Shown here: positions 5,261-60,876 of the stretch, in pieces
How positions within the stretch are numbered: the first letter of the stretch is position 1
Layout: each line of letters starts with the position of its first letter
Assembly (NCBI GenBank): GCA_016647705.1
Contig: CM028336.1
Location: 620,001-684,000, forward strand
Reading direction: 5' to 3'
Length of the DNA: 64,000 nt
Origin: Eucommia ulmoides
Taxonomy: Eukaryota; Streptophyta; Magnoliopsida; Garryales; Eucommiaceae
Translations under genes and position numbers: made by a program
Notes under the pieces: generated by a model
The model's input: only the letters and a program-made list of their open reading frames with translations
What the model was told of the DNA's origin: nothing
Database searches by the model: none

Positions 5261-6339
5261 GGCTACAGCAAATTGAAAATCACTATCTACTGTTTCATTT
5301 TTGGCTCGAGCGGGGTTTTGATAAAATATTTTTCTTAAACCTTTACACCTCTCATGTGGGTCGGAACTGACTGGACAAGGAATTTCTCTACCTAGGAACC
5401 GTTATAATCACGGCCGCCGTTCACTGGGGCTTCAATCGCCGGCTCTCTTGTCATCGGGTCACCAATTTCCTCATTCTTCTGGCACTGGACAGGCATCATC
5501 CCCCATACATAGGTTTACGACTTTACAAAGACCTTTGTTTAGTATAGGAGATAGTCCATTATATTCCAGCGGACAAAAATGGCTCTCTCCTACGCTAGAC
5601 AAAAGGCGGTCTATTGTAGGTACACATTTGATCTACAAGTTCTCGTGCGACTATAACCAATTATCTAGATACATATTCAGTTCTTTAAGGAAACCGAATA
5701 TATAATAAGATAAACTTCATGATCCACATAGACGCCACTCCATATTTTAGGGACCAAAAATATAATTTTCCATCGAGATAACCCCAATCAAAATTAGAAA
5801 TACATTTTCATACCAATTTGATATACAATTTAAATTATAATTCTAAAATTTAAAATTAATTAATTAATTGGGGAATGATTTAAAATTAATTTACTAATTA
5901 TGGGTGATAGTGGAAGTGAAATCTTGTAAAAATTCGATTCCTCTATGGAGGTGGGAGAGTAAAAGTAAATAACATTATGAGGTCCTTTTATAAAATAAAA
6001 ATAAAATTATTCAAATGAAGTTTACACGAATGATACGGTATTGTGAAAGCCGGAGGTACAACCTCCGGCTTCCCTTTTGTTAACAAAAAAAAGGATTTGT
6101 GATATTTTTCTACTATACTATAAATAAAAAAATAAATTTGAACAGGCACAAATATTACATAATACAAATTGAAAATAACATGCATATATAGAGTTACAAT
6201 TATTTATACAAATTCAATCACATGCATTATTTTCTACATAGAAAAGGCAAATACATATGTTACCACATCAAGAAATAAAAAGAACATGGTTCCTTCTTAG
6301 TCTCTCCTTCAATGCTTATGGAATTATCAAAAATGATTC
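5261..6339. other. Intergenic: ORRM1 promoter side, no gene seen
   Basis: AT-rich DNA upstream of ORRM1. Short frames have no recognisable domain or codon bias. No RNA gene or clear repeat was recognised. Confidence 0.5.
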
Positions 6340-38824: not shown

Positions 38825-40926
38825 CACCTAAGTGTTTATGTGATTTGTGTCAAGTGTACAACGGATATTCAAACAAAAGCAATAATCATAAATACAAATA
38901 AATGCAAAAATTTAAAGAATAGAGAATGAGAGATTGACACTGGTATTTTATAGTGATTCGCCAAACACCCTTTGCCTAGTCCACTCCCCTGAGCTCTTTC
39001 GAGGATTTCACTATCTTTGATCTTCTTACGGGTGAAGACCAATCCATTTAAAGTTGCCGCTTGAGAAGTTCGCATCTCAAGACTTTACAATTTAGAGTGA
39101 ATATGTTCTACTCACAAATCTCTCATCTTGAGCAAAATTCTTACTCAATATTTACAATCAAAATTTTCATCGTCTCACAAAGTAAAGTTTCAACATTCAC
39201 AAGATATAGAACTCAATAATCTATGTGTGTGAAGCAAATATAACAATAATTCAAAAGAAATGAATCAAGAAAAAAATGAAGTGTTGTTGTTGCACAGAAA
39301 TTTGCTTGGAAACTTTGGTAGTATCTCTTTAATCTTTGTAACTCAATTGAAAGAGTGATACTTGATTGATTGGTGAGTTGTAATACTTTCCAACAATATT
39401 CCTCTTTATATATATGTTGAGAAGTGTTAAGAGGATTTCACAATTGAAGTGTTGAGAAGATATGACATTTGGGTATGATTTCTTCAAGTGTCAAGACGTA
39501 GACTCCTCTTCACTTTTATTTTCTGCAGATTTGTCAAGATTTCAATCACTTTTTCCAACACCATAAATGTTAGACATATCTAATTAGATGCATATGACCC
39601 TTTGTCCAGTTTTTGTCATGATGGTAGTGAAAAAATATAATAAAGATTTCATATATTCAAAATGGATATTATTAAGTATGATTGATATTTAAAGCATATA
39701 GACAAATCATGATGGAGATATTCAAAGTTGGATGTGCATCATTAAAGGTATGGCTCCTCCAATTTAAATTATGATCAAGATAATAAATGAATATGGTTGG
39801 CATGGGATAAAGCATGACATACATTAATTAGTCAATCCTATCATAAAGTAGGTATGCATTAAATACTCCAACTACTTGCACAAGTTGGTCAAGATAATAT
39901 ATTTCATGTGTATAATACTAAGACCACAAATTTATATGTCAAACACATGATGTATAATCACATTTATACATGAATACAATAAATTTGATCATTTAAAAGA
40001 ATTCCAAACATGTTACACCACTTAATCACATTTTGCATGAAAAAACAGAATTTTCAGAGTAGTTCAACCAATTTGTCAGTTAAACATGGATATAAAGTTG
40101 AACATATCAATTAACCCTGCATATATCATGTAGACATATTAAATTAATATATCATAATATGATTTGAACATTTTGAATAATATTTGATATGTAAATTCAA
40201 TTTTTGGTTCATGACAAAAAGCTACAAAATGAGTTTTTAAGAGTTTCAAAATGTTTTGATCAATTCTCTTCAATTCAGTATTATTTTGATCATATTGAAT
40301 GATGATTAAGATATTATACATACAATATAATATATAAAAACCATCATACAACAGTTAGAACAAACAAATATCGCCAAATAAATAAATGCTATTGACATTT
40401 TTACAAATAGTTACTATTTTATAGGAAAAATATATCAAAATTTTGCCTACTATGCAAATAAATAAATGTTATTGAGTTAGGGTTCCATAGCAAAAAGAAT
40501 CACTTCATTTGGACTCCAAATGAGTGAGATATGATCAAATGAGTGAGTAAAGGCCTAGACAGGATTTTCTGCAAGAATCAGCTACTGATATGAAATTTAT
40601 ATGGTTTTAATGATATTTGAATTAACTTTTCAACCATATAAAATGCATTAAATTTGGATAAGTAATAAGAGAGATATGACCAATTTACTACAGAAGATCC
40701 ATTCTGATTTTTTGGACAACAACAGTTTATTACTATAGTGTTTTCAATACAATTCTATTTTTTCTCATCCGTTCTTGGTTTTGGTCGATATCTATGATTA
40801 TTTTTTAGCCAAATACCTTAAAAATATTATTTTAATGATGTCCAAAGTGTTTTGATGATCCAAATATACAATCTACCTTATGATTACATAGATACCGAAT
40901 TTAAGTAATTTGAGCATTTTTGTGAC

Positions 40927-41756: not shown

Positions 41757-42309
41757 TTTGTGACCAAAATGTAAAATTTTCAATTGAGCAAGGTATGAAC
41801 AATCTTATTGCATGGATCATGATATAATAATTATATGAATATATTCAAAATATTATATCAATAACATTTTAAGTGTTTTCACATTAAGATTATGTAATGT
41901 ACTATTTGGTCACAATAAATCTAAGTTTGAACATATTAAATACATTTCTGATCAAGATGTGAATTTTTCAAATTTGCATGATATAATCAAACATATAATA
42001 CACATTTTAATATTTAGATATATTGGACATGTTAGAAACAAAATATCACAAATGTATGCACCTTCGGTGTGTGTGTGCAACCTATAGAGTTTTGAGTTTA
42101 ATATCTTGAGTAATGTTGTCGAAATGAAAAATTATATTATTTAAATCATACCTTTCGACTTGAATGCATCTTCATGATGTATTTCCATAATATATGGATG
42201 ATCTATATTTAAAAATAATGTTAGTTCATTCAAAACGTCAAATAAGGTGTTATCGTCAAAATCACATTTTTCGGAGATCCTATAATTGAAACCGCTTAAG
42301 CTAACATAT

Positions 42310-43922
42310 TGATAGGTGTAAAATACCTATCTAATTCTAAACCGAATTTGCCAGTTTTCGAGTATTTTATTGAAGTTTGAATATATTTTTAGTTATTTTT
42401 ATTAGTTAGGAGAAGGGACGTAAACAATCGGCAAACTGAATGAAATGGTGGAGAAAAGGGTAGCTAAAAGATAAAAAAAAAGAGGTTTCAAAGAACAATC
42501 CAATTCCGCCTAGGCGAAGTTTTCACCTCCTAGGCGGAAATCCATTAGAAAGTTGCAAATGCTGAAATGTTGAAATCCACCTAGGCGAAGTTTCCACCAC
42601 CTAGGCAGAAATCCGTTAGAAGGTTAATAGCGCTGAGAAGTTGAAATCCGCCTAGGCGAAGTTTCCACCGCCTAGACGGAAATCCATCAGAAAGTTGCAA
42701 GGGCTGAAATATTGAAATCCGCCTAGGCGAAGTTTCCATCGCAAGGCAGAATTCCGTCAGAATGCTGGACGTGCTGAACTGCTGGAAGTGCTGAACTGCT
42801 GAAACCCATTTAGGCGAAGTTTATACCGCCTAGGCGAAAATCCATCAAAAAGAAAGAAGATAAGAAGTTAGTCCTCCGTCTAGGCGAATAAACCATTGCC
42901 TAGGCAAAATTCTAACCGACTTAAACTCCGCCTAGGCGAAGATTCTACCGCCTAGGCGCATTTCGCAGAACAATCTAAAATATCTGTTTAGATATTTTTG
43001 AACCCCGATGTCTATTTATACCCATTTTCCACGTCTGAAAAAGGTTGTTGATGAACCCTAACCCTAGTAGAGAGTTCTTAAGCTATATTTTGAAGACCAA
43101 GAAGGAGATTCATCATTCGGACAAAGAAGAATCACTTGCGGATCGATCATTAGCGACAGTGAACCGTTTCACTTTCAGATTTGATCGTTTATCTCTTGTT
43201 TTTATCTTTGTAATCACTTTTTTATATCTAAGAATGTTGAATCTCTCTTATTTTGTATGGTATATGGCTAAAATCTTGTAGTATTAGTTAAATGTTACTT
43301 AAGTGTAGTTGAAATCATGTAATTGTTAAGTTGAAGGAATTAATGTTACTTTAATGAGTTATTTGTTAAATCCGATTGTGTTTACCATTATTCTTGATAT
43401 TATGCTTATATTGATAAACCGAGAATATGGGATTTGTCACTCGGGAGAGGTAACCCCGGATTCGGACTAGGGTAAATACAACGTGACGTTCTAACGACCC
43501 AGGAGGGCATTAGAACGTATGTAATCCATGACGTTGGCTAAAGACTCACGCGACCTAGGGTCGTAAAGGCATTGAAGGGGATTTCTTCGTTGACACTCGG
43601 GAGAGGTAGCGGAAGAGTTATCAATACAGAGATTGTCGGAATAGATAGAAAACCATTATAGCTAACTTAATGATGTCGATTATGTATTATGTGAAAAAAA
43701 TCAATACCTAAGTAATTAGTGTAATTAGAACTAACCTAATAGTTGTCGTTTATCTTAGTATATTAAATAGAAAACAAACAAATTTTGATCTCAACCGAAT
43801 TACACGTCATTTCCAGTGGAACGATATCCGATCTTACGAGATCCATTATATTAAAATTAGACCTCGTATACTTGCGAATAGTCAATACCGCAAGGACGAT
43901 GGTGTGAATCCTCGTGCGTACA
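42310..43922. mobile_element. Solo LTR, 1613 bp, TSD CATAT
   Basis: Begins TGATAGGTGTAAAATACC and ends CTCGTGCGTACA, TG...CA termini. A perfect 5-bp TSD CATAT flanks it (42305-42309, 43923-43927), and repeat R resumes beyond. No internal domain, primer-binding site or second LTR, so it is a solo LTR from recombination. Contains the palindromic minisatellite at 42505-42965. Confidence 0.8.
42505..42965. repeat. Palindrome-bearing minisatellite, about 7 units of ~71 bp
   Basis: Each unit carries two copies of the palindrome CGCCTAGGCG (variants included) about 20 bp apart, as in CCGCCTAGGCGAAGTTTCC followed by ACCGCCTAGGCGG. The spacer varies in length in the last units. Confidence 0.85.
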
Positions 43923-43927
43923 CATAT

Positions 43928-44640
43928 AACCATTGGAGATTCTCTTCAAATTATCAAGATTCAAAATGCAAGACTCTTCTCCATTATCTCTGCATATTTG
44001 TCAAGATTCCATTCACTTTTCTAACCTCATAAATGGTAGATAGGTATAATTAAATACAAAGGATCCATAGTCCATTCTTGTCTTTGAGGTAATGAAAAAT
44101 TACAATCATTTGATCACATATACAATGTATATAATTGAATATGGTTGGTAATTATAAATTTAAACAATTCATGATGAAAATCTTCAAAGTTATATTGGAA
44201 TCATTAAATGTAAGACTTCTCAACTTTAAAAATGAATCAAGATAATGAAGATAAGTTAGCATATTCATGGTGGGAGACAAGATATGGGTTAACAATAAAT
44301 GAGTTACCCTACCACCAAATCAAAATAATATCTTTTGTATTCCCATTTGATTGTATTGACAAGTTCAAATTCAAATTCAAATCAAATACTTGTATACATA
44401 CATTATTATGTATTTGAGCACGTGTATATAATATGTATAAAGTATATTATACATGTATACAATCTAATTAAGCACACACAAGCCTTTCAAGAGATTGAAC
44501 ACTTAGAATTTATTCAACATTTAGAAAACATAATTTTCATACTCTTTGATCTAATTTGTCAATTAATCATAGATGTAATGATAAACATATCAATTGATTA
44601 TGCATATATCATGTAGACATGTTAAACTAACATCTCATAA
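43928..44640. repeat. Repeat R, partial copy
   Basis: Matches the 39470-40150 part of the long copy (TTGTCAAGATT-TCACTTTT, TCATAAATG blocks). It passes directly into the cysteine protease remnant at 44.9 kb. 44641-44890 has only AT-rich sequence. Confidence 0.5.
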
Positions 44641-44892
44641 CATGAAATGACTTATTTTTCTATTTGTCCTTTTGCAATTTATAATTTATTCTCAACGTTA
44701 ATTATTTTTTATCTTTGACATATCAAATTTTATTTTAATTTGTAATAATATGATTCTTTTAGTTGACATACGTATACTCATGATGTTTTCAATGAAATAA
44801 GAAATCAAGAATGATGTAGTAAATTATCTCAAATTAAAATTATATTTTTTTTCTTTCTTGGTTATATTAATATTTATATTAAATCATTTTAA

Positions 44893-45735
44893 GGTTGTTG
44901 CCATGCTATGGTGGCACCAAATGCATACAAAGCTCTCTATAAGTTAGAACACAGTTAAAAAATTCTCCTTGCACCGCAAGAATTAGTTGATTGGTTACAC
45001 TAGAAAGTTGTTCATGGTCTTACAAAAGTGGATAAGGTTGGATTCTGTACTTCAACCATCAATAAGACATTTAGTTATATAAAGAAATATGGAATAAGCA
45101 AATATATTAATTATCTGTATGTGATTAATAAAAGCGAAAAATCTCTATAACCAAAAGTAAGTTTAAAAAATAATAAATTTACGTGCATATGAGTTTGATT
45201 TCAAAAATAATTCTGAAATATATTTGAACTATTAACACGCATTTAATTTATTTATTTTAGAGACAAAAATTTAAGATTGATGGTTACACGAAGGTTCATC
45301 AAGATGCCAATGAGAAAGATATCTTAGATTTCATTAAACAACGTCCAATTTGTATTGTGATAATTCTATATGATAATATAGAATTTTTAAATTATGTAAA
45401 TATAACTTTTAATGTGTGTGTGTTTATATTATTCATTAAATTTGAATAATAATTATTATTTCTTTAACTTTTGAGTATGATACTTTAACTTTTAAGGATT
45501 TTTTGACAATAGCAAGTTTTTGATATTTTGCTCGTTCTTATCATTTTTTAGTAGGAGATTTATCAAGGACCAAGACAGACCCTAAGACCGTGAGATTGAC
45601 AAACATGATATACTAGTCGTCAGATATGGAACTGAAGATGGAGTAAACTACTATTGGATAATGAATTCTTATGGAGTTTCTTGGGGATGTCGAAGGATAC
45701 GGCAAGATCCGGCGTGATCTTGTCTTCCATTTTTC
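44893..45735 (+). pseudogene. Papain-like cysteine protease remnant, copy 1
   Basis: Three exon-like blocks. Block 1 (44893-45151): GCCHAM, corresponding to the active-site region GxCWAF, then LAPQELVDW for SEQELVDC; it has in-frame stops. Block 2 (45260-45400): KFKIDGYTKVHQDANEKDIL, corresponding to the papain YEDVP-NDE region. Block 3 (45552-45735): KHDILVVRYGTEDGVNYYW then MNSYGVSWG, matching the catalytic His and Asn regions. Stops and frameshifts make it non-functional. AG/GT sites flank the blocks. The whole set is duplicated at 49.1 kb. Confidence 0.75.
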
Positions 45736-47104
45736 CTTTTCAGAAAAGACTTTCATCCAATAAGTTGGTAAAGATAAACTTTTATATTGACATTTTTATT
45801 TTACTAACAGGGTTTATTTATCTGGTGTAACTTAAAACTCTTTTTAAGTCGTAATATGTGTTATCTTGATATATCAGTTTTTTATCTTAGAACATATGAG
45901 ATGTGTAGGTGCAAGGGCGAATGCGCATACTGTCTAATAGCGTGGTGGTTCTACTCATTTTTTTTTCTTTATTACATTTTTTATAATGTACTTGTTATTT
46001 TAAATAAATATGCTCTCACTAAGTTTTGTGTATAATTTCATTTTTTCCTTTGAATTTAATATATTTAATCACCTAAAAACACATGCTAGATTTTTTTTCG
46101 TGATTAAACATAAAAGTGGGGACAATTTAATAGTTAATAAAAGCCCGTATGCAAGAGTGCATATTTTTACTATATTTGTTGATTCAATAATTTTTTGAAA
46201 TTATCTAGTTCAAAAAAAAAAAAAAAACTAATTAAAAGAATCAGATTGAAGTAGGTTCTCGTCAATTAAAAGAAATGAACTTCAATGCATTTATATACTT
46301 TATAAATCGCTAATTACCTTACGGTGCAAAAAATCGGAGCGGAATTGTTCCTTATGTTTGGGATGTGGGAAATGATAATTGTCAAATTCAAGAACCGGGG
46401 CAGCCTCTTCCTGATTTCTCCCTGATCTCCTTGGTGCCACGGATGGAATTTCTCAAGAACACAAGCTCTCAACCTAGGATTTTGGTATTTCTCCGAAATG
46501 CTCAAGGTATGCTTCCTCTCTAAGATGAGAATGAAAATGTGGTGAGAATATGAGTATATATAGGTAAAGAAATCGTGTAAACAAACCTTAAAGCCATTAA
46601 GATTAGTATTAATTCTGTAACTATCCATGCACTCAATACCAGGACAAGTAGTCGACTACTTATCCAACAAGTAGTCGACTACTTCTGTTATAACATTTCC
46701 AAGAGGTAGTCGGCCTGATCCGTTTTTCGTTCGCACTCTATTTGGATGGATTTAATCAATATTCAGCCTTTGTATGATTTGTTGTAGTATAAATCAATCT
46801 CAATTAATTTAGAATTGATCCATATTACTTATAACCAAATTTCGTTGTTGTCTCAAAAATTTAAGTTATCAAAATTTGATTTTTGATCGCATTGAAAAAC
46901 ATGATTTTAAAATAATTTTTAAAATCATTTTGAACACATCATATATGTATAAATATCAGTAAAATTCATTTTCAATATTGTAAATTAAAATTGAAGTAAA
47001 TTTTAGCAATTAAGATAATTTTTGCAAAGTATAACATATTTACTCTCAAAGTAAAATGTTTTGAAAATTTTATTTTCAAAATAATTTCAAAGTATCTTTT
47101 TCTC
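45736..47104. other. AT-rich DNA with a probable LTR fragment and paired palindromes
   Basis: 46314-46628 on the minus strand resembles a retroelement LTR leader: TATA-like TACCTATATATACTC, then a spliceosome-like leader, without coding domains. 46646-46684 holds two copies of AAGTAGTCGACTACTT. No gene is seen. Confidence 0.4.
46646..46684. repeat. Paired 16-bp palindrome AAGTAGTCGACTACTT
   Basis: Perfect palindromes at 46646-46661 and 46669-46684, starts 23 bp apart. A related pair lies at 50103-50141. Confidence 0.9.
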
Positions 47105-47452
47105 TCATCATTTACAGTCATTTAATCACATATACAATGTATATAATTGAGTATGGTTGGTAATAATAAATGTAGACAATTCATGATGGAAGTCTTCAAA
47201 GTTGGATTGAAATCATTAAAGGTAAGGCTTCTCAACTTTAAAAATGAATCAAGATAATAAAGATAAGTTGGCATATTCATGATGGGAGACAAGGTATGAG
47301 TTAACAATAAATGAGTTACCCTACCACCAAGTCAAAATAATATTTTTTGTATTCCCACTTGATTGTATTGACAAGTTTAAATTCAAATCAAATACTTTTA
47401 TACATACATTATTATGTATTTGAGTACGTGTATATAATATGTATAAAATATA

Positions 47453-48640
47453 TGAAAAAGTACAATTTAGACCCTTTAACTATTGACACATTTCTAAGTG
47501 GTCCCTCTAAATTTAAACGTTTCATTTCAAACCCTCTACGTATCATAACATTTCTAAATGGTTATTCCGTTAGAAAAACAGTTAAAACTAATAAAATTTA
47601 GGGGTAAATACATCATTTCACAATTTTTTAAAATTTTTTAATCATTTTTTTTAATCTCTCTCTTCCTCTCTCTCCCTCATTCCTCTCATTCTCCCTCTTC
47701 CTCCCATTCTCCTCTTTCCCATACTCCCCCTGCAATAGGTGGGTGGATCATCTCGTAACCACCCCCTGTACCAGGGGGTGATTTTTCAACTAAATGACCT
47801 TCGGGATTCTGCGGATAACTGTAGGGTTTTTCCAACGTATCTGAACGGGAAGTGTTTTACATATATCCTTCCCTTTCTCTTCAAAATATTTGAAACTCCT
47901 GAACTAATCTATTTGAAGCTCTCTCTATCAAGAACTAGAACGAGAACTCTCTCTCTCTCTCTCTCTAAAATATTTGAATGAAGAATTTGTCATCCTTAAA
48001 TCGCTCTCTCTCTCTCTCTATATATATATATATTTGTATCGTGACCGTTAGATTTCTCTCTACATATATCTTTCCTTTTCTTTCCAAAATATATTTGAAA
48101 CTCCTGAACTAACTTGTTTGAAGCTCTCTCTTAAGAACTAGAACGAGAACTCTCTCGCTCTCTATGTAGATATATACATACACTGAGAGAGAGATATCTA
48201 GTTTTCTATCTAGTTCATTAGAGATGGTGATATACGGAGGGTTGAAGAGGAATAGAGATGAAGAAGATCAGATCAATGGGATTGGCGAAGCTGGACATGG
48301 CGAGGGGATCAACGGGAACGGTACAATTTTTCCGACTACGGGGTTGAATCTTAATCTTGGTTTAAGTCCAGCTATGCCAAAAAATATAGAAGTGGTGACA
48401 GGGATGGTGGTGAGAGTCCAAGCATTGATAGTGCGCCAGTAATGGCCTTGACGGTCGCCGAGATGGTGGCGACATCATTGTCTCTCTCTCTCCTTCGGCA
48501 CTGCCACTGCCACATCCTGGGTTCATTTCGGTACCGACATATAGAAGCCGAACAAGGCAACGGAATCGTCGCCGGTGACCTCCGATACCGGAAGGGAGAA
48601 GCGAGATAGTTACGTAGATATTATACACGTATACAATCTA
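47453..48640 (+). mobile_element. ~1.2-kb insertion carrying gene-like leader and a short ORF
   Basis: Contains two similar leader-like stretches (47868-47962 and 48066-48160, both with GAACTAGAACGAGAACTCTC) followed by an ATG frame at 48224-48442 of 72 codons including LNLNLGL, an EAR-repressor-like LxLxL pattern. Probably a captured fragment of a transcription-factor gene. Terminal repeats are not clear, so element class is unknown. Confidence 0.4.
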
Positions 48641-49092
48641 ATATATTATACATGTATACAATCTAATTAAACACACACAAACATTTCAAGAGATTGAACA
48701 CTTAGAATTTATTCAACATTTAGAAAATATAATTTTCATACTCTTTGAGCCAATTTATCAATTAATCATAGATGTAATGATAAACATATCAATTGATTAT
48801 GCATATACCATGTAGACATGTTAAACTAACATCCCATAACATGAAATGACTTGTTTTTCTATTTGTCTTTTTACAATTTATAATTTATTCTCAATGTTAA
48901 TTATTTTTTATCTTTGACATATCAGATTTTCTTTTAATTTGTAATAACATAATTCTTTTAGTTGGCATACAGATACTCGTGATGTTTTCAATGAAATAAG
49001 AAATCAGGAATGATGTAATAAGTTATCTCAAATTAAAATTATATTTTTTTTCTTTCTTGGTTATATTAATGTTTATATTAAATCATTTTAAG

Positions 49093-49600
49093 GTTATTGT
49101 TATGCTATGGTGACAACAAATGCATGTAAAGCTCTTTATAAGCTAGAACACGATTCAAAAATTCTTCTTGCACCACAAGAATTAGTTGATTGGTTACACA
49201 AGAAAGTTGTTCATAATCTTACAAAAGTGGATAAGGTTGGATTTCATACTTTAACCATCAATAAGACATTTAGTTATATAAAGAAATATGGAATAAATAA
49301 AGATATTGATTATCCATATGTGGTTAAGAAAAGCGAAAACCTTATGTAACCAGAGGTAAGTTTGAAAAATTATAAGTTTACATGCATATGAGTTTGATTT
49401 TAAAACTAATTCTAGAATATATTTGAACTATTAACACACATTTAATTTATTTATTTTAGAGACAAAAATTTAAAATTGATGGTTACATTTACGTTCATCA
49501 AGATGCCAAGGAGAAAGATGTCTTAAATTTCATTAAGTAGTGTCCAATTTGTGGTATGATAACTCTGTATGATAATATAGAATTTTTAAATTGTGTAAGT
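49093..49600 (+). pseudogene. Papain-like cysteine protease remnant, copy 2
   Basis: Block 1 (49093-49349) has no internal stop: CYAMV, LAPQELVDWLHKK, INKTFSYIKKYGI and DYPYVVKK, the last like the papain DYPY motif. Block 2 (49461-49600): KFKIDGYIYVHQDAKEKDVL, then a stop. The His/Asn block of copy 1 is missing, since the sequence passes into repeat R at about 49630. Confidence 0.7.
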
Positions 49601-49639
49601 ATAACTTTTAATGAGTCTGTGTGTTTATATGTATAAAAT

Positions 49640-50360
49640 ATATTACATATGTATACAATCTAATTAAGCACACACAAGCATTTCAAGAGATTGAACACTT
49701 AAAATTTATTGAACATGTAGAAAATAGAATTTTCTACTCTTTGAGCTAATTTGTCAATTAATTATAGATGTAATGATGAACATATCAATTGATCATGCAT
49801 ATATCATGTAGAAAAATTAAACTAACATCTCATAATATGATTTGAACATTACGAACAAAATATGATATGCAAATCCACATTTCGGTTCATGACAAAATTC
49901 TGCATTTAGTGTTCTTAAGTTGTTTAAATTGTTTTAATCCAATTTTATTTGATTCAACATGGTATGGATCAAATTAAATGATGATAACATATTAGATAAT
50001 CAATATAAAGCATATGAATCATCATACAACAATTAAAACAAACATACGACGCCAAAACGTGAAGCTAAAAATAGAGCAGGAGAGAGAAAGTACACTGCTT
50101 GGAAGTAGTCAACTACTTCCAATATAAGTAGTCAATTACTTATGTTGCAGATCCTGCGGCATTTTGTTTTCGTTTGTTTTGGGTTTTTAGTCTCAGATTA
50201 TGATCGTTTATCAATCTAAACACTTTTAAAAATATGTATCAACTATATTCATGATATTTAGATGATCCAAAAACTCAATGTACCTCATGATCATGTTAAG
50301 AATATGAATTTTCGATTTTGCATAATTATGATCAATATCTGTTTTTTCTGTTATAGCATG
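49640..50360. repeat. Repeat R copy with paired palindromes
   Basis: 49640-50060 matches 40000-40380 and 44420-44640. At 50103-50118 and 50126-50141 are AAGTAGTCAACTACTT and AAGTAGTCAATTACTT, starts 23 bp apart, diverged relatives of the pair at 46646. Confidence 0.6.
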
Positions 50361-50998
50361 TGTTGATGCCAAAAAGTGGTGACGGGTCAACAGGATGATC
50401 TGGAAGGATATCAGGGGCACAGGACCGCTGATGGTGTAATTAACTGGGTGAATTTTGAGGTAATGACGACCTCCGAGCTGAGCTCCACTTTTTCACTTCG
50501 AGCACCTGCACAAAGACCCACTGGGGTTGTGCCCGATGAAGTCCCTCCGGCGTGAGAGTAAGTATCCGGGGGAGAAGGGCTAAAAGTGCTCTAGTGTCAG
50601 TAGAGAAGACGTACCTTGGGCATTGAATGCCACGGTGTATTTATAGGTGCTGGACTCGATTAGCGCCGCGAGATCAGGGAGATAAACTCGGGTTAACCAA
50701 CCTAACTCGTTGGTAGCCAATGAGCAGGCGGATTAGTGCTCTAATCAGTTAGTTTGGGCTTATGGGCCCATCTGTGGAGGCCCATGGGCCGTAGCTTCCC
50801 CATGGCCTGAAGAGGTCCTCAGCGGCGAAGAATCTGAGCTGGGAGTATTTGAGCTCATCAGCTCGGCACGGACTCCACCAGCTCGATACAATGGTCTTCA
50901 GCTCAGTTTGGAGGGAACCCGGCTCCCAGCTCGGCTATTTTTCCATACTTTGAGCGATATCTTCCACGTGACATATGTGACGAAATTTCCCCACATCA
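50361..50998 (-). mobile_element. Solo LTR, 638 bp, TSD GCATG
   Basis: Read on the minus strand it starts TGATGTGGGGAAATTTC and ends CTTTTTGGCATCAACA. A perfect 5-bp TSD GCATG flanks it (50356-50360, 50999-51003). A promoter-like CCTATAAATACACCG occurs at about 50635-50650 on the minus strand. Its GC content is clearly above its surroundings, suggesting a recent insertion. Confidence 0.82.
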
Positions 50999-51003
50999 GC
51001 ATG

Positions 51004-52654
51004 TAATGATCAAACGCATATTTCACATTATAATATATAAGCATATTGGATATGTTAAAATCAGTATATCACAATTATGAACAAATACGGGGTATGTGTG
51101 TGCGTACTATAGAGTTCTGAGTTCAATATTCCGTGGGTATTGTCGAAATAAAAAATTACTTTAATGTAAATCATATCTTTTCATACCTTTTCGACTTGAT
51201 TTCACTTTCATGATATGTTTCGGTGATGCTTGGATAATCTATATTCAAAATCATTGTTAATTCATTTAAAACGTCAAATATGTGTGTTATCGTCAAAATC
51301 ATATTTATCCGGTGATCTTATGATTGAAACCGCTTAAACTAACAAATATCATTTCACACTATTTAACGGATTTAACTGACTTCCGGCTGTTGACCGTTAG
51401 AGTTAACGAAAAACGTAACCGTTGCACTTTAATTCAAAACTACAGGAGGGTAACTGACAAAAATAAAACCACATGGGGTAAGTGCAAATCAGCCAAACTA
51501 CAGGGGATAAAGTGTTATTTACGCCTGGGAGAGCATTTAATGTGAGAGGACAAAGAGAATTTGACATTTGATAAAGTTGTTAAAGTTAAGATATACATAC
51601 ACACCCATTAAGGAATCTTAGAAAAGATGACAATTTTGACCTTCCCAAATTTTTTGTTTGTTGACATGAAAACAAACAAGATGTTTTTACACTTCGTTTG
51701 TTGGTGATTTGATAGGGAATTAAGCGTATACGAAACGCATCTTGTAGCGGTAATGAAATTTTTGCCTTCGCCTTGATTTTCACCTCATCGGGGATGTCCA
51801 TCGTCTATGACAACAATATGGTCGAAAACACATTATGAAAAGATACAACCCCAATCTCAATACCATTCCCATCGTTGTCCTTTCTCCTCACCAACTTTAT
51901 ACACAACGTCTAATTTTTAAAAGATAAATATACAATTAAAAATATAAATATAAATAAAATAGTATTTTGTTTTCACAATAAAAATAAATAAAACAATATT
52001 ATATTTTTTTTTCTTTTTAACTTTTATTTTTTGTATTTGATATTTATTTTTTATTTCTAATTATATTATAAATTTTATTAGATTAATAATAAAATTATTT
52101 ATATTTTGGCTAACAAGAAGCAATGAAATTATCTATATTTTGCTAATGATTGTCTTAATTCTAATTAATTGTATATAACTTCGTACTTTTATCTTATTCA
52201 TTCTCTCCAACCGTTTAATAAATTTATCTCTCCATCTATTAATTATATATAAAATTTATTCAATTCCATGTGCTTTAAGGAGTATTATAATATTTTTTTA
52301 TCAAATAATAAAAATTACTAAACAACATAAAAAATGACTTGTTATATTATTTCAAAACTATTATCTGAAAAATATAAAGTTAAATAATTGGAAAAAAAAT
52401 CCTAGGATTTGTTAACTTTATATTTACTATTTAAAAAAAAAAAAAAAGTGGTTACTGTTAATAAATTTAGAGGTTGACATTAATAGTTTTTTAAGTTAGT
52501 TTTTTTAATATTTTTGAATAAATTTATTTTTGATATACTCATAAAATATATTTGATATAAAACTAAACGATTAATTGTGTCTATGTACAATATTCAAATA
52601 AAAAATAATTATTAATATTTTTTAGGTCTTGCATATTATACGGGTTTATAACTA
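51004..52654. repeat. Repeat R end and AT-rich DNA with a Helitron-like 3' end
   Basis: 51004-51341 matches 41790-42306. 51425-51525 is the inverted partner of 36331-36430. At 52640-52655 the plus strand reads ATACGGGTTTATAACTAG followed by T, like a Helitron 3' end; I cannot place its 5' end. No gene is seen. Confidence 0.4.
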
Positions 52655-52745
52655 GTCTAATACTTAAAGTGGAAGGAGAAAAAATATTTTAATGTGGTTA
52701 GAAAATATTTATATCAAGAATTTTAGTGAACTAACGTATAATCAA

Positions 52746-53016
52746 TGTTAGAGTTTTTTTTAATTATTTAGAAGTTCATTATTTAGTTTGTAGTTATTTT
52801 TTTAGTGGATAAAGAACGTGGGTTTTCTTTACCTAGCTTCTAGGAGTTGATGTTAGTGGAGTAGGTTGATGTTAGTGGAGTAAATAGGAGTTGGTGTTAG
52901 TGTCTTAGTGGGTAGTTTTTAATTAAATGTACTTGCCTATTTATAGGCTATTATTATTATAAAATATATGATATGTTGAGCTTCCAAAATTTTCAACTCT
53001 CTTTTATTTTTTAACA
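52746..53016 (+). repeat. Copia 5' LTR
   Basis: Differs from the 3' LTR by a few substitutions and small indels, so the insertion is old enough to have diverged but still clearly paired. Confidence 0.93.
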
Positions 53017-53070
53017 GTGGTATCAAGAGTCAGAGAGAAAAAACAGCAGTTTGAGGTAGCAGCCAAAAAA

Positions 53071-55046
53071 ATGTCCAACGACAACTATATTCAACCAGCA
53101 ATTCCATACTTTGATGGTCACTATTATCATTAGAGCATGTTGATGGAAAATTTTCTGCGATCCAAGGAGTATTGGACCATCGTGGAAATTGGTGTGATTG
53201 AACCAGCCAGTGAAAAAGTGTTGACAGAAGCATAACAAAAGAAATTGGAAGAATAAAGGCTAAAGGATCTCAAAGCAAAAAATTATCTGTTTCAAGCAAT
53301 CGATCGTTATATTTTGGAGACTTTTCTTCTAAAGGATAATTGCAAACAGATCTAGGATTCAATGAAGAAGAAATATCAAGGTTCTTCTAGAGTCAAGCGT
53401 GCACAACTTCAAACCTTGAGAAGAGATTTTAAAACTCTGCAGATGATTTGTACTCTGAAAATGAAAGAAGTATCTAATAATACAGAATTTTCAATGTACT
53501 CCCAAGTCTCCTCCAAAGTCAAGCAAAAACTTATGGAGATCAACAAATTGGCCATACCATTTTCCACAGGAACCCCTGATGGAGTAATTTTTAATGACCA
53601 GAAACTTAAGTGACATACAAAAATAAAAATAATTTATTTTTATTATGTTCTCAAATTTAATTTCGTTTTAAAATATATCGAAAATACAAATAAAAATTTA
53701 AGAACACTAACAATAAAAGAAACACAATTAATACTACAAGAAAGTTAAAAAAGAAACAAATTAATTTTATTGAGAAACAATTCATTTTCACTGCAATAAA
53801 TTTATTTTGGATGTGATTGCATACATTCTCTCTCTTTTTTTATTTTTTTTATTTTGTTTTTAAGGTGATTAGATAGGAACAAAATTGAGTTAGTGATTAA
53901 GTATATTCAATGTGTCATATATTTTGTATATGTGTCTCATACATCTCAAATACGTTCAAATGTTTCAATTATATTGGATATGTTAGATATACATTTCTAG
54001 TAAATATCTATTGAATATTTATCTAATAAAATAGGTCTACATAAGAAAAACTTCATATTTCCGTTGCGTCGCTTTCATAAGAAATATCCAAAATTCCAAC
54101 CACGTTATTCATTTGATAGAACATGCCCTTACACTATTCTACTAGCCAATCAAAATTGAATTCCAACCACCTTATTAATTTGATAGAACATGCCCTTAGA
54201 CTCTTCCACTAGCCAACCAAAATTGAATTCCAACCACCTTATTAATTTGACATAACATGTCCTTTTCATTGGTTATTGTAGAAGTTAATGTGTGACACTA
54301 ACAGACATTTACTTTTCAAGTAGTGAGATTTCGATTCTATTTTCATTGGTTATTGTAGAAGGTAACAAAAAAAGAAATAGCGGAAAAAGATAACATTTTT
54401 ATCTATTCTCTAACTAAAATACTGGTATTGCATACGAAAAATACACAAAAAGAAAATAATAAATGAAAAGATTGGACTATAATTTTGCTAAAACTGGATA
54501 CAAATTACTGCTAGTAACTGTTTGAAGTGAAGTAAACTTTCAATATTACTCCCATAACTCAGACTCAGAAATAACTTCAAGCTCGCCTGTGTGGCTATTG
54601 TTGAGAAGATTTTACATTCGTTGGTCCCAAAATATGATTATATTGTCTGCTCAATCGAAGAATCCAATGATATAAATGGGTGTTCATTTGATGAACTCCA
54701 AAGCTCCTTACTGGTTTTATGAATAAATGATGAATCGAAATTCAACTTCTGATGTTCAATCTCTAAAGACTACTACTTTTGCTCAATTCTCAAATTCAAG
54801 AGGAAGGGTAGAAGTAGAGGCAGAGGAAGAGGAGGTAGAGGCAATAGAGATGGAAGTAGGCAGTATCAGAATTTCAAAACTGATGAAGGTCACTCAAATT
54901 ACAGAAGTCACGATAAACAACTTGGCAAATCCAAGATAGAGTGCTACAGGTGCCATAAGTTTGGTCATTACCGATCGGAATGTTATACCAAACTGCTAAA
55001 TGACAGAGAAGGTGGAGAAATCAAATTTTGCAGCAGAAAAGAATGA
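53071..55046 (+). pseudogene. Copia gag, broken, with a ~1-kb insertion
   Basis: The start is MSNDNYIQPAIPYFDGHYY, followed by in-frame stops. The gag frame ends near 53450 and resumes at about 54585 (AIVEKILHSLVPKYDY). It ends in a zinc knuckle CYRCHKFGHYRSEC (C-x2-C-x4-H-x4-C, about 54941-54983). The intervening AT-rich ~1 kb has no TIRs I could recognise. Confidence 0.8.
54088..54262. repeat. ~67-bp tandem repeat, about 2.7 units, inside the gag insertion
   Basis: Units contain AATTCCAACCACCTTATTAA and TTGATAGAACATGCCCTTA, then CACTAGCCAA(C/T)CAAAATTGA. Confidence 0.8.
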
Positions 55047-58000
55047 ATCAAAGACTTTATTGATGGTTTTTCATGTCAATGAGGAACTATCATCAGATGT
55101 TTGGTATGTGGATACAGGCTGCAACAACCACATGTATGAAAATAAGTCCTTTTTTTCTTCTTGAAATGAAGGGTTTCATTCTACTTTGAGTTTTGGTGAT
55201 TGTTCTACAGTGAAAGAGATGGGAAAAGGTGATATTAATATTAGAACCAAGAACGGTTTTGTAGAAACAATTTTCAATGTTTTTTATGTTCCTGACTTGA
55301 AAAATAATTTATTAAGTGTTGGTCAATTTCAAGAAAAGGGTTATGTGATAACTATTCAAAAAAGTGTTTGTGAGATTTATGATCCTTCAAGAGGAGCAAT
55401 TATTGTTGTTCATATGAGTTCAAACAAGTTGTTTCATTTGAAGATAATAACATCTCAATCCTGTTTGATAGCTGAAGTAAAAGATCCTTCATGGCTTTGG
55501 CATTTTCGCTATGGTCACTTGAATTTTAGTGGATTAAAGACTCTTCAACAGAAAGATACGGTGATTGGCCTCCCTCAAATTACCATTCCTTCCCAAGTTT
55601 GTGAAGAGTGTGTTGTTAGCAAGCAACATCGTTCTCAATTTCCTCAAGGAAAGTCATGGAGAACAAAAAATGTCTTGGAACTGGTTCATTTAGACATTTG
55701 TGGGCCAATAAATCCATCTTCAAACGGGGGTAAAAGATATTTAATCACTTTCATTGATGATTATATTAGAAAAACTTAGGTTTATTTTTTGCAGGAGAAA
55801 TCAGAAGCTTTTAGCGCATTTAAAACCTTTAAGGCACGTGTGGAGAATGAAGCAGAAAGAGTGATTAAAACTCTTCGCACTGATTGTGGGGGAGAATATT
55901 GCCCAAAGGAATTTGATGTTTTTTGTGATGAGCAAGTATTCGAAGGGAACTTACAGCTGCATACACACCACAACAAAATGGTGTATCGAAGAGGAAAAAT
56001 AGGACCACTCTCAATATGGTGAGAAGCCTCCTGGCAAGAGGAAGAGCTCCAAAAAAATTCTAGCTTGAAACAGTAAACTAGAGTATTCATGTGTTGAACA
56101 GAAGTCTTACTTTTTCTATTCAAAACATGACACCTGAGGAGGCTTGGAGTGGGCGCAGACTAGCTGTAGATCACTTCAGGATTTTTGGTTGTATAGCTTA
56201 TGTACATGTCCCTGATGAGAAAAAGAAAACGCTAGATGATAAAGGGGAAAAATGTGTCTTTCTCGGTGTAAGTAAAACATCCAAAGCATATAAATTGTTT
56301 AACCCACTTATAAAGAAAATTGTCATCAATAAAGATGTCATATTTGATAAGGAGAACACTTGGGATTGGAATAGGCAACAACTTACTTTAGTCATTTTTT
56401 TACGAAAAAAATGATGAAAAAAGTCAACAGCCCCTACAACCACAAATTCCAACAGCTCATATGTCCGAAAATTCACTAAATGAAACTCCAACAGCTGCTG
56501 AAACTTCACCAGTAGTAGCAGAATCCACTAATTCAACAGTTGATCACAGCTTCACCGTGTTCGAAAAAGGCCTGGATGGATGATAGATTATGAGATAACA
56601 AAAATTAACCAATCTAATGATCCCATTACACACTTTGCTCTTTTTTCAGATTGTGATCCTACAGTTTTTTAGGACGCTGTCAAAGAATCAAAATGGCAAA
56701 AGGCGATGGATAACGAAATTGCTTCTATTGAAAGGAACAATACTTAGGAGCTGACTGATCTTCCAAAAGGACACAAGACTATTGGTGTCAAGTGGGTTTA
56801 CAAGACAAAATTGAATGAAAATAGAGAAATTGATAAGTACAAGGTTTGACTCGTTGCAAAGGGGTACAAACAAGAATACAGTGTCGACTACAAAGAAATG
56901 TTTTGTTACATCCTACCCCGGTTACCCGACCCACAGGGATCGGTGTGACAACGACACATCTCATTCAAAAAAGACTAACACTATGGAAAATAACTTACAC
57001 ATAAAAATATTATTTACTAAAGCCAACAAAAATACATATACCCCTTCTATTGGGAACTCTCTTGATCTTACAACAAAAATATTAGTTCATTTTAAACAAC
57101 CAACATATACAACCCAAAACAGAAATCACTGTCAAGATACTCTCTCGATACGGCCCTTCCGGATTCGACCTACTGCCAGTAGGGGACAAAAGTTTCTCTA
57201 CAGCACCTGCGAATGTACTGTCTTCTTAGTAATTTAAAATACATTTTTAAAATAATAATACATTCTCAATACCTTTAAAGGGATCAAACGTAAATATACG
57301 AATACCATAGTATAAACATTTCTTCTTAAATTAAGCAGTGAAATAAATAATGAATATATAAATATCTTTCTAATCCATTCAGTGTAAAACCATACCAATC
57401 ACCATACGCAATAAATCGTCAATCTTAGTAAAACACCGCATTTCAAAATTTACATATCACCCACATACACACCTGCTAAATCATAGTGATCGTTTTAACC
57501 TCACGATCGGGAGTTGCAACGGTACCGTAACTATCTGTAGGATATGCCTTCCTAGAGGACCTAACTGCGCAGATCACCACCTACTGGACGTCTCCGGAGG
57601 CCATAATATAAATCACCACATATTATCAATCACCACCTGCCGGACCACCCTACGAACATGACATAATATGAATCACCACCTGTCCGACTACCCTCCGGAC
57701 AGGACGTAAACTATGTCATAGTCCAACCAACAACACTAATAAAAAACAATAACACTATTTGCCGAAGCAGATACTCGCCATTGTCAAATCAATTACCGTC
57801 AATTTCTAACAAATTATTTATAAAATCTTTCTTTTTAAAACCCAAACAATTCAACGGAATTTCATTTTACCAACTCACTCAAAACCTGCTCGATCCACAA
57901 TATTTATAAAATCATGCAGTTTAAGCAAACACCTAGGTTATCATATATGTACATAGAAAAATATTTTAGTAAGAAGACAGTACACTCACCTGAAAATTCG

Positions 58001-58299
58001 CACTTGCAAGCTCCCTTGGCTCCCTGTTACTAAGTCTCCGAAAATTGTGAACCTATTTGTGACAGGACCTAAATTAATAGAGTAGCGAAAATCAACCTAA
58101 TCGTGTGATGCAAGCCCTACGTTCATTAATTTTCCATTCCCCACATTTTGTCATATAAAGATATGATTTCTTCATTTGATATATTAAGGCTATAAAACTA
58201 ATTTAGTAAATCATAAAAACTAATAAGAGACGTTACCCACTTCGGAACGGTTGTCGATTCTCTTAGAAATTCCTTAGGATATGATTCTGCTCCCCATCG

Positions 58300-58590
58300 C
58301 CTAAGCGAAAATACACCGCCTAGGCGAACAGACGATTTCTTGTTCTCTGTTCTTTTACCGCCTAAGCGAACTTCCACTGCCTAAGCGAACATGTGATTTC
58401 TTGCTCTCTGTTCTTTTACCGCCTAAGCGAACTTCCACCGCCTAAGCGAACATGCAATTTCTTGCTCTCTATTCTTTTACCGCCTAATCGAACTTCCACC
58501 CCCTAAGCGAAACTTGCGATTTCTTGCTCTCTGTTCTTTTACCGCCTAAGCGAACTTCTACCGCCTAAGCGAAACTTCCATCGTCCCTAG
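58300..58590. repeat. Palindrome-bearing minisatellite, 4-5 units of ~63 bp
   Basis: Units read CCGCCTAAGCGAACTTCCAC then CGCCTAAGCGAAC, followed by TTTCTTGCTCTCTGTTCTTT. Each unit has two near-palindromic CGCCTA(A/G)GCG sites about 19-20 bp apart. Confidence 0.88.
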
Positions 58591-58982
58591 CAGAACATAA
58601 CAGAATAGACCAGTCCTTTATCCCTTCGCATCACCAACTCTGGCCACTAAATTCATCACTCCACCTCTACGATCAACCATGCCAAATTTACAACTGACAC
58701 TACCAACCTCATTCCCTTCAACCCAACTAAAACACACACTAAAACAGCACCCCAACCCTACCGGTTGCAGCCCAAAACAGCAAAACAGAGCACACACACT
58801 TCACACACACATACCAACTTTCATATGACCCAAAAAAAATGTCACACTTACATACTCTAACCACCAAGATGACCATCAACCCTGAGAAAACACCCTGAAC
58901 TGTCACCGGTGATCTCCGGCAGCTTCTCCGATGGCTTCTACTCCTTCGTTCTTCTCTCTCTCTCTTGGTTTTTCTTCTAGAA

Positions 58983-59039
58983 TGATGGTGATCCTTGATT
59001 ACCACGTTTATATATATGATGGTGATCCTTGATTACCAC

Positions 59040-59103
<64 letters not shown>
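58983..59103. repeat. 34-bp duplication followed by (TA)n
   Basis: GATGGTGATCCTTGATTACC plus CACGTTTATATATA is tandemly duplicated (58983-59016, 59017-59050), then TA dinucleotides run to 59103. Confidence 0.9.
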
Positions 59104-59106
<3 letters not shown>

Positions 59107-60609
59107 GTTTAAAATACTCATTCCTCCCCCCAAACTTTTAATTTTCTTACCTTTGTCTCTTTAAATTTTTTTATTTTTTTATTTTTTTTTAAATGCACTT
59201 AAATGACGCACAAGCATGAAATCGGGGTCTTACATGTTTGCTCCAGTAGCAAGGCTTGACACTATTCGGTTGGTGTTAGCCACTATTGCCCAAAATTCAT
59301 GGCCTGTATATTGGCTGGATGTAAAGTCAATATTTTTGCATGGGAAATTGGAAGAAAAGGTGTACGTTGATCAACCACCAGGATATGTGAAGCAAGATCA
59401 CGAAAACTAGGTATACAAGTTTAAAAAAGCATTATATGGACTAAAACAAGCACCTAGAGCTTGGTATAGTCGTATAGATACTTACTTTGCTAAGAAATTT
59501 TTTTTTAAATGTCCTTATAAGCATACACTCTATACTAAATATAAAACAGATGAGAAGATGCTTGTAGTGTGCTTATATGTTGATGACCTTATTTATGTTA
59601 GTAATGATAGAGTCATGCTTGCTGATTTTAAGAAATCTATAATGAATGAATTTGAAATGATAGATCGATCGATGTACTATTTTCTGGGCATTGAAGTAGT
59701 GCAATCTCCTGCTGGTATCTTTGTTTCACGAAGGAAATATGCCTTTGAAATTTTAGACAGGTTCTAAATGAAGAATTGTAATCCAATTTTGACTCCAACT
59801 GAACCTGGTCTGAAACTCACAAAACATGGAGCATAAAAAAGAGTGAATGCTACTCTTTACAAGCAAATTGTTGGGAGTCTCATGTATTTGACATCCACAA
59901 GACCAAACATCATGTATGTTGTAAGCCTAATCAATAGATACATAGAAAATCCATCTGAAGTTCATCTCTTAGCTGTAAAGAGAATTTTTCGTTACTTGAA
60001 AGGTACAACAGATTTCGGAATCATGTATAAAACTACTGAAAAATCAAGGCTGATTGGTTTTTCAGATAGTGATTATGCAAGAGATCTCGATGATAGGAAG
60101 AGCACATCTGGTTCTGTGTGTCTAATGAGCTCTAGAGCAGTAACTTGGTTATCAAAGAAGTAACAAATAATGGCTCTATCAACTACAGAAGCTGAGTTCG
60201 TTGCAGTAGCATCAAGCACATGTTAAGCTATTTGGTTACAAAGGTTAGTTGGAGTTCTACACAATCCGCAACAAGGTCCAACTTTAATCTACTGTGATAA
60301 TGTTTCTGCAATTAAACTATCAAAGAATCCTATTCTACATGGAAGGAGCAAGCATATTGATGTGAGATTCCATTTTCTACGTGATCTATGCAAGAATGGT
60401 GTGATTGAGTTGGTGTTTTGTAAGAGTGAAGATCAAATTGTAGATTTGTTAACCAAGCCTCTCAAGCCTCCTGTCTTTTTGAAGCTTAGAAGAATGCTTG
60501 GAGGATGCTCTTCAAAGGGTATTGATTCAGAGGAAGCTTAGTATGGTTGTTTAATTGTTGAAGTCTTTGTTTCTAAACTGATTTCTGCATATATCAGTTT
60601 AAGGGAGGG

Positions 60610-60876
60610 TGTTAGAGTTTTTTTAATTATTTAGACGCTCATTATTTAGTTTGTAGTTATTTTTTTAGTGGGTAAAGAACGTGGATTTTCTTTACCTAGT
60701 TTCTAGGAGTTGATGTTAGTGGAGTAGGTTGATGTTAGTGGGGTAGATAGTAGTTGGTGTTAGTGTCTTAGTGGGTAGTTTTTAATTCAATGTACTTGCC
60801 TATTTATAGACTATTATTATGATGAAATATATATGTTGAGCTTCCAAAATTTTCAACTCTCTTTTACTTTTTAACA
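60610..60876 (+). repeat. Copia 3' LTR
   Basis: Near-identical partner of 52746-53016; preceded directly by the polypurine tract. Confidence 0.93.

Follow-up and report, generated by a model that had tools for sequence, protein, structure and literature searches.

Arrays of palindromes in the long terminal repeats (LTRs) of plant retrotransposons are described for the Sireviruses (Bousios et al. 2010, PMC2829016): in 13 elements, high-copy palindromic motifs, termed RMs, precede the TATA box and number at least 8 and as many as 32 per element. That study places the start of the RMs mostly 200-400 bp into the LTR and their extent at 300-500 bp, finds a CGG-CCG core in 12 of the 13 motifs (one element lacks it), and reports near-identical motifs in some monocot and eudicot elements of very low sequence homology; the mean pairwise identity of Sirevirus LTRs is given as 3.9% (PMC2829016, Table 1), and a regulatory role was proposed there rather than demonstrated. 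In maize, no motif of structured regions is commoner than the palindrome CACCGGACNNNGTCCGGTG, in Copia elements as well as in Helitrons; palindrome clusters are tied there to small RNAs, and a tug of war between cis-regulation and their role as small-RNA targets is discussed (PMC10760457). A single table row for the soybean Rps1-k locus lists the 19-bp tandem repeat GCTCGCCTGGGCGAGCTGA, present in 1.9 copies and containing the palindrome CGCCTGGGCG (PMC2330051, Table 4). For the Tnt1 superfamily, regulatory modules in the U3 part of the LTR are said to evolve apart from the rest of the element (PMC1838419). Here we analyse two solo LTRs, LTR1 and LTR2, in a 64,000-nucleotide stretch of the Eucommia ulmoides genome (assembly GCA_016647705.1, contig CM028336.1, positions 620,001 to 684,000; hereafter the window). 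These two dissimilar LTRs carry one common module of paired palindromes, well above chance.

Both elements are solo LTRs with exact 5-bp target site duplications. LTR1 (42310..43922, 1613 bp, + as its likely sense strand) runs from TGATAGG to GTACA between copies of CATAT at 42305..42309 and 43923..43927, and LTR2 (56904..59234, 2331 bp, - as its preferred sense strand) reads from TGTTACATCC to TCTTACA on the + strand between copies of TGTTT at 56899..56903 and 59235..59239. The TG...CA ends and the identical flanks confirm both boundaries given in the original prediction. LTR2 sits within the reverse transcriptase of a Ty1/copia element (52746..60876, +), identified through its terminal repeats (52746-53016 and 60610-60876, 93.7% identical, with ATCAA on both sides) and its Pfam domains (gag_pre-integrs, Pol_BBD, SH3_retrovirus and RVT_2). 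When the LTR2 flanks are joined, the Copia reverse transcriptase reading continues unbroken over the junction, so LTR2 is an insertion with exactly the bounds 56904-59234; a stop codon lies just upstream of that unbroken stretch. For LTR1, a further copy of the surrounding repeat, at 50999-51348, matches the left flank at about 76% identity as far as the insertion point, whereas the right flank has no continuation in it; the continuity of the empty site is thus seen on the left only. No second copy of LTR1 or LTR2 was found within the window, where the matches outside them were short or simple-sequence.

Each LTR contains a tandem array of pairs, a pair being two 10-bp near-palindromes of the form CGCCTARGCG. 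The LTR1 array (42507..42958, +) has seven pairs, starting at 42507, 42578, 42649, 42720, 42807, 42877 and 42929, the first four at a 71-bp period. The LTR2 array (58298..58571, +) has five, starting at 58298, 58359, 58420, 58481 and 58543, at a 61-bp period (62 once). Start-to-start, the two half-sites of a pair are 20 bp apart in all six measurable LTR1 pairs and 19 bp apart in all five LTR2 pairs; in the remaining LTR1 pair, the fourth, the second half-site (about 42740) has degenerated beyond recognition at up to 3 mismatches. Successive recognisable half-site starts are separated by 20, 51, 20, 51, 20, 51, 87, 20, 50, 20, 32 and 20 bp in LTR1 and by 19, 42, 19, 42, 19, 42, 19, 43 and 19 bp in LTR2. 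The earlier figure of about 19-21 bp thus gives way to one constant value in each LTR. Likewise, the core quoted with it, CGCCTA(G/A)GCGAA(G/C)TTTCCACCG, fits LTR1, while LTR2 reads CGAACTTCCACCG, one base shorter; at up to 3 mismatches this core is found at five places in LTR1 and at one in LTR2, the last half-site of the array.

The palindromes are concentrated in the two arrays. Allowing at most 1 mismatch, CGCCTANGCG gave 37 rows on both strands, every one within the arrays, where shuffles led to an expectation of 1.31 rows (5 at most), and whole pairs (CGCCTARGCG-N8..10-CGCCTARGCG) gave 5 rows at 4 places, one place being counted on both strands, against 0.00 expected. With up to 3 mismatches, CGCCTAGGCG occurs on the + strand at 23 places in the arrays (13 half-sites in LTR1, 10 in LTR2) and at 45 elsewhere in the window, all 45 at 2-3 mismatches. 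Over the palindrome columns, the mean frequency of the major base is 0.886 in LTR1 and 0.96 in LTR2. After the last LTR2 half-site, the sequence CGAAACTTCCATCG at 58562-58590 looks as if a third, decayed half-site closed the array.

The likeness between the arrays extends beyond the palindromes. Consensus units, each built on the first four pairs of its array, can be aligned over CCGCCTAGGCGAAGTTTCCACCGCCTAGGCG and CCGCCTAAGCGAA-CTTCCACCGCCTAAGCG with 28 of 31 columns identical and a score of 18; 2000 Markov shuffles averaged 6.6 and reached 14 at most. The tandem units with a common paired-palindrome core that had been predicted for both LTRs are thus borne out. Between the palindromes, the spacers (9-10 bp; AAGTTTCCAC and AACTTCCAC) are themselves similar; of 200,000 random pairs of spacers, 0.07% scored as high. 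Since the spacers are similar, it would be the whole 31-bp module that is shared, rather than palindromes on which the LTRs converged separately, and this suggests that the module was acquired as a unit, by common descent or transfer, and not invented twice. Comparisons of less exact units are less telling: BLASTN of LTR1 against LTR2, which sees single copies, is weak (E 0.011 at best), and the consensus units of Tandem Repeats Finder (TRF) score 13 for the LTR1-LTR2 pair, with three higher scores and one tie among 378 comparisons of 28 units picked out of 53 TRF rows. The higher scores were 38, between repeats in the two Copia terminal copies, and 17 and 14, between A/T-rich repeats. With a TRF score of only 13, the case for the module rests on the consensus built from aligned pairs.

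Outside the arrays the two LTRs have nothing recognisable in common. The whole-LTR alignment also scores 18 (200 shuffles: mean 12.5, maximum 17), and once the arrays are masked the best score falls to 11 in both orientations, not above the level of the whole-LTR shuffles. Together with the different termini and surroundings, this agrees with the original prediction that the LTRs differ; the outcome named there as refuting it, a single family by whole-LTR alignment, does not occur. The description of them as unrelated is right in that nothing aligns outside the arrays, but it goes too far where lineage is concerned, since LTRs of one lineage can differ as much.

Variation within the arrays was compared by unit part. 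Among the four 71-bp LTR1 units, pairwise differences amount to 28/120 (0.233) in the palindromes, 6/60 (0.100) in the spacer and 111/246 (0.451) in the linker. Among the five LTR2 units, of which the last has only 38 bp and one was aligned with one base omitted, they amount to 16/200 (0.080), 16/90 (0.178) and 49/228 (0.215), respectively. The module is therefore less variable than the linker in both arrays, although only slightly so for the LTR2 spacer. The distance from pair to pair changed in three of six steps in LTR1 and in one of four in LTR2, while no measurable pair changed its internal spacing. One of the three LTR1 changes adjoins the degenerate half-site and may fall inside that pair, and the difference of 19 and 20 bp between LTR2 and LTR1 is itself a 1-bp change inside the pair. 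By a hand estimate, such constancy would arise by chance in about 7-14% of cases, which is not significant, and the constant spacing within pairs is only a hint of constraint. Nor is a special decay of CpG sites apparent: transitions make up 6 of 8 changes at the CpG positions of the LTR1 palindromes and 5 of 8 at their other positions.

As the best explanation, we propose that the arrays of both solo LTRs are made up of one multi-copy palindromic cis-element, regulatory by analogy with the RMs of Sireviruses; we would give this proposal an even chance. The element would be the 31-bp module, two CGCCTARGCG near-palindromes 19-20 bp apart around a common spacer, which was presumably amplified in tandem within each LTR together with different linkers (71-bp and 61-bp units). 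Its most likely job would be transcriptional, offering several dyad sites to a putative host DNA-binding protein near the LTR promoter, and transcripts across the array might in addition form hairpins that feed small-RNA silencing.

The position of the arrays depends on the strand of each LTR. In LTR1, the array spans LTR positions 196-649 and ends 55 bp ahead of the TATA-like TATTTATA (43013..43020, +), and the presence of this motif directly past the array makes + the likely sense strand. For LTR2 we prefer the - strand, as suggested by TATAAAC at - positions 189 and 223, near the - strand start, and by the - strand start TGTAAGACCCCG and end GGGTAGGATGTAACA, which we take to resemble those of plant chromovirus LTRs. 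The LTR2 array occupies LTR positions 664-937 on the - strand and 1395-1668 on the + strand. If LTR2 is read on the - strand and LTR1 on the + strand, then the module is inverted relative to transcription between them. At 58982-59103, at the presumed promoter end of LTR2, a 34-bp unit is present in two identical copies beside a (TA)30 tract; with the + strand as sense, only about 130 bp would come after the TA tract.

In base composition, the 200-bp windows over the LTR1 array (starting at 42510-42810) have a GC content of 0.41-0.48 and a CpG observed/expected ratio (o/e) of 0.83-1.41, and those over the LTR2 array (starting at 58204-58404) have a GC content of 0.42-0.47 and a CpG o/e of 1.35-1.44; other parts of both LTRs are also above a CpG o/e of 1. 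The usual GC threshold for a CpG island, such as the Sirevirus RMs are said to define, is 0.50, and the array windows of both LTRs fall below it.

Predicted folding differs between the two arrays: hairpins are strong in LTR1, whereas those of LTR2 range from weak to moderate. The LTR1 consensus pair could form a 12-bp RNA hairpin with -24.8 (+) or -28.5 (-) kcal/mol, compared with -7.1 (+) and -16.4 (-) kcal/mol for the LTR2 pair. The latter folds well only on the - strand, a consequence of its frequent G-to-A change (CCTAGG to CCTAAG, as read on +), which yields G-U pairs there but C-A mismatches on the + strand. Against 60 Markov shuffles, the RNA folding z-scores of the arrays are -2.1 (+) and -4.6 (-) in LTR1 and -0.7 (+) and -2.4 (-) in LTR2; for single-stranded DNA the z-scores are -4.3 and -3.7 for two LTR1 pairs and -1.7 (+) and -1.2 (-) for one LTR2 pair. 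Selection for an RNA hairpin is not claimed here, since the G-U asymmetry of LTR2 is not matched by a strand preference in LTR1.

Several observations weigh against the proposal of a regulatory cis-element. The module is known from only two loci, with one copy of each LTR. The fourth unit, which passes into another small repeat at 42763, makes the linker figure of LTR1 too high; the least variable part of LTR1 is the spacer and not the palindromes; spacer and linker barely differ in LTR2; and the low variation of the palindromes may come in part from recent duplication. The changed arm positions of LTR1 show no strand preference for G-U pairing (in the 10-bp arms, 5 favour + and 6 favour -). 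The strand assignments are provisional as well: TATTTATA is found in LTR1 only on the + strand, yet TATAAA occurs there three times on the - strand and zero times on the + strand, and in LTR2 TATAAA is present on both strands (- positions 189, 223, 1327 and 1413, and seven + positions). If LTR2 is indeed in - sense, its array would lie 440-750 bp downstream of the TATAAA at 189 and 223, though upstream of those at 1327 and 1413.

Among the alternatives, neutral exchange fares best and is possible, if well short of probable. The module would have moved from LTR to LTR, or a third repeat, for instance a minisatellite or a small palindromic element, would have supplied it to both, with slippage amplifying a functionless sequence. 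Homology that is limited to the module and includes the spacer as well as the palindromes is in keeping with this, as is the abundance of tandem repeats in the window (the 53 TRF rows, some of them overlapping). It sits less well with palindromes and spacers that vary less than the linkers in both arrays (only slightly so for the LTR2 spacer), or, as a weak point given the chance estimate above, with 11 measurable pairs that stayed constant while three or four pair-to-pair distances changed. Moreover, a template switch on sense RNA would not be expected to invert the module relative to transcription, as the likely strands imply.

We consider it unlikely that both LTRs converged independently on a site for one host factor. 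The near-identical palindromes in some Sirevirus elements of very low homology and the soybean 19-bp unit with CGCCTGGGCG, listed in its one table row, are what such convergence would produce, but the match between the 9-10 bp spacers is left unexplained unless the spacer belongs to the site. Improbable to a greater degree is descent of LTR1 and LTR2 from one old lineage with the module as the sole recognisable remnant: plant LTRs of the same lineage can be almost unalignable, as the mean identity of Sirevirus LTRs illustrates, but the termini, the lengths (1613 versus 2331 bp) and the surroundings of the arrays differ, and the module probably has opposite orientations relative to transcription. 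Lastly, a chance likeness of two unrelated GC-rich minisatellites, for which the BLASTN and TRF results might speak, is scarcely credible when the consensus score exceeds every one of 2000 shuffles and no half-site match at up to 1 mismatch falls outside the arrays.

Around LTR1, the copies of a long direct repeat (44443-45429 and 48642-49630) share 90.7% identity over 989 bp, and related pieces occur at 39506-39787, 40042-40378, 44100-44447, 47112-47453 and 49627-50056. The sequence GTGGTATCA directly follows the left terminal repeat of the Ty1/copia element at 52746-60876. A Pfam match was obtained for 9 of the 10 open reading frames tested in the window, including MORF, A20/AN1, R3H/SUZ, M18 peptidase and Ty1/copia pieces, a content that resembles nuclear DNA of a plant. 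The Rfam scan of the window returned one match, outside both arrays, to a bacterial-type large-subunit rRNA (RF02541, 96.7 bits; 5341-5550, - strand), probably a fragment of inserted organelle DNA, and the tRNA scan returned no match.

A broader view, which we hold to be doubtful, is that the paired palindrome is a portable cis-element in many unrelated eudicot LTR families, read by one host dimer pair about two helical turns apart, with lineages converging on the module or passing it round. The soybean 19-bp CGCCTGGGCG repeat would then be another case. Recurrence of the pair at a fixed spacing across families would point to a host factor needed by several plant retroelement lineages and would help to trace, by sequence, how LTR promoters acquire or exchange regulatory elements; otherwise, the Eucommia arrays would be one more instance of palindromic repeats in LTRs. 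Among the literature matches listed, mostly open-access papers, there was no report of a CGCCTARGCG pair in an LTR, and a string match in PMC4163409 was set aside as a primer with no bearing on the module; judged by title, the listed string matches had, a few apart, nothing to do with plant repeats. Viral contigs contained neither the module nor the pair on its own, a result that carries no information on plants.

Compared with the Sirevirus RMs, the Eucommia arrays are likewise clusters of high-copy LTR palindromes, and the LTR1 array, if LTR1 is in + sense, lies upstream of TATTTATA at nearly the Sirevirus offset, whereas LTR2 fits that offset on neither strand. With 13 and 10 half-sites, counted per LTR and under another measure of identity, both arrays lie above the threshold of at least 8 copies (commonly >85% identity) used there. 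They differ in the core, which is CGCC..GGCG or CGCCTARGCG and lacks the CGG-CCG signature, and in layout, the palindromes being paired 19-20 bp apart within 61- and 71-bp units. The maize CACCGGACNNNGTCCGGTG is comparable as a single palindrome found in unrelated classes of element, but it is another motif in another plant. That work reportedly builds on Bousios et al. 2016. The soybean CGCCTGGGCG is a near-palindrome one base from CGCCTARGCG and stands at the 19-bp spacing of LTR2; GCTCGCCTGGGCGAGCTGA itself differs in its spacer and appears in one short table row, where the host element is not named. The Tnt1 case, as excerpted, concerns U3 divergence inside one superfamily and not a motif common to dissimilar LTRs. 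With the phenomenon already on record in Sireviruses and maize, the present arrays surprise less. Both palindromic LTR arrays and palindromes common to dissimilar elements are thus known, and the Eucommia LTRs differ from them in their motif and in its paired layout.

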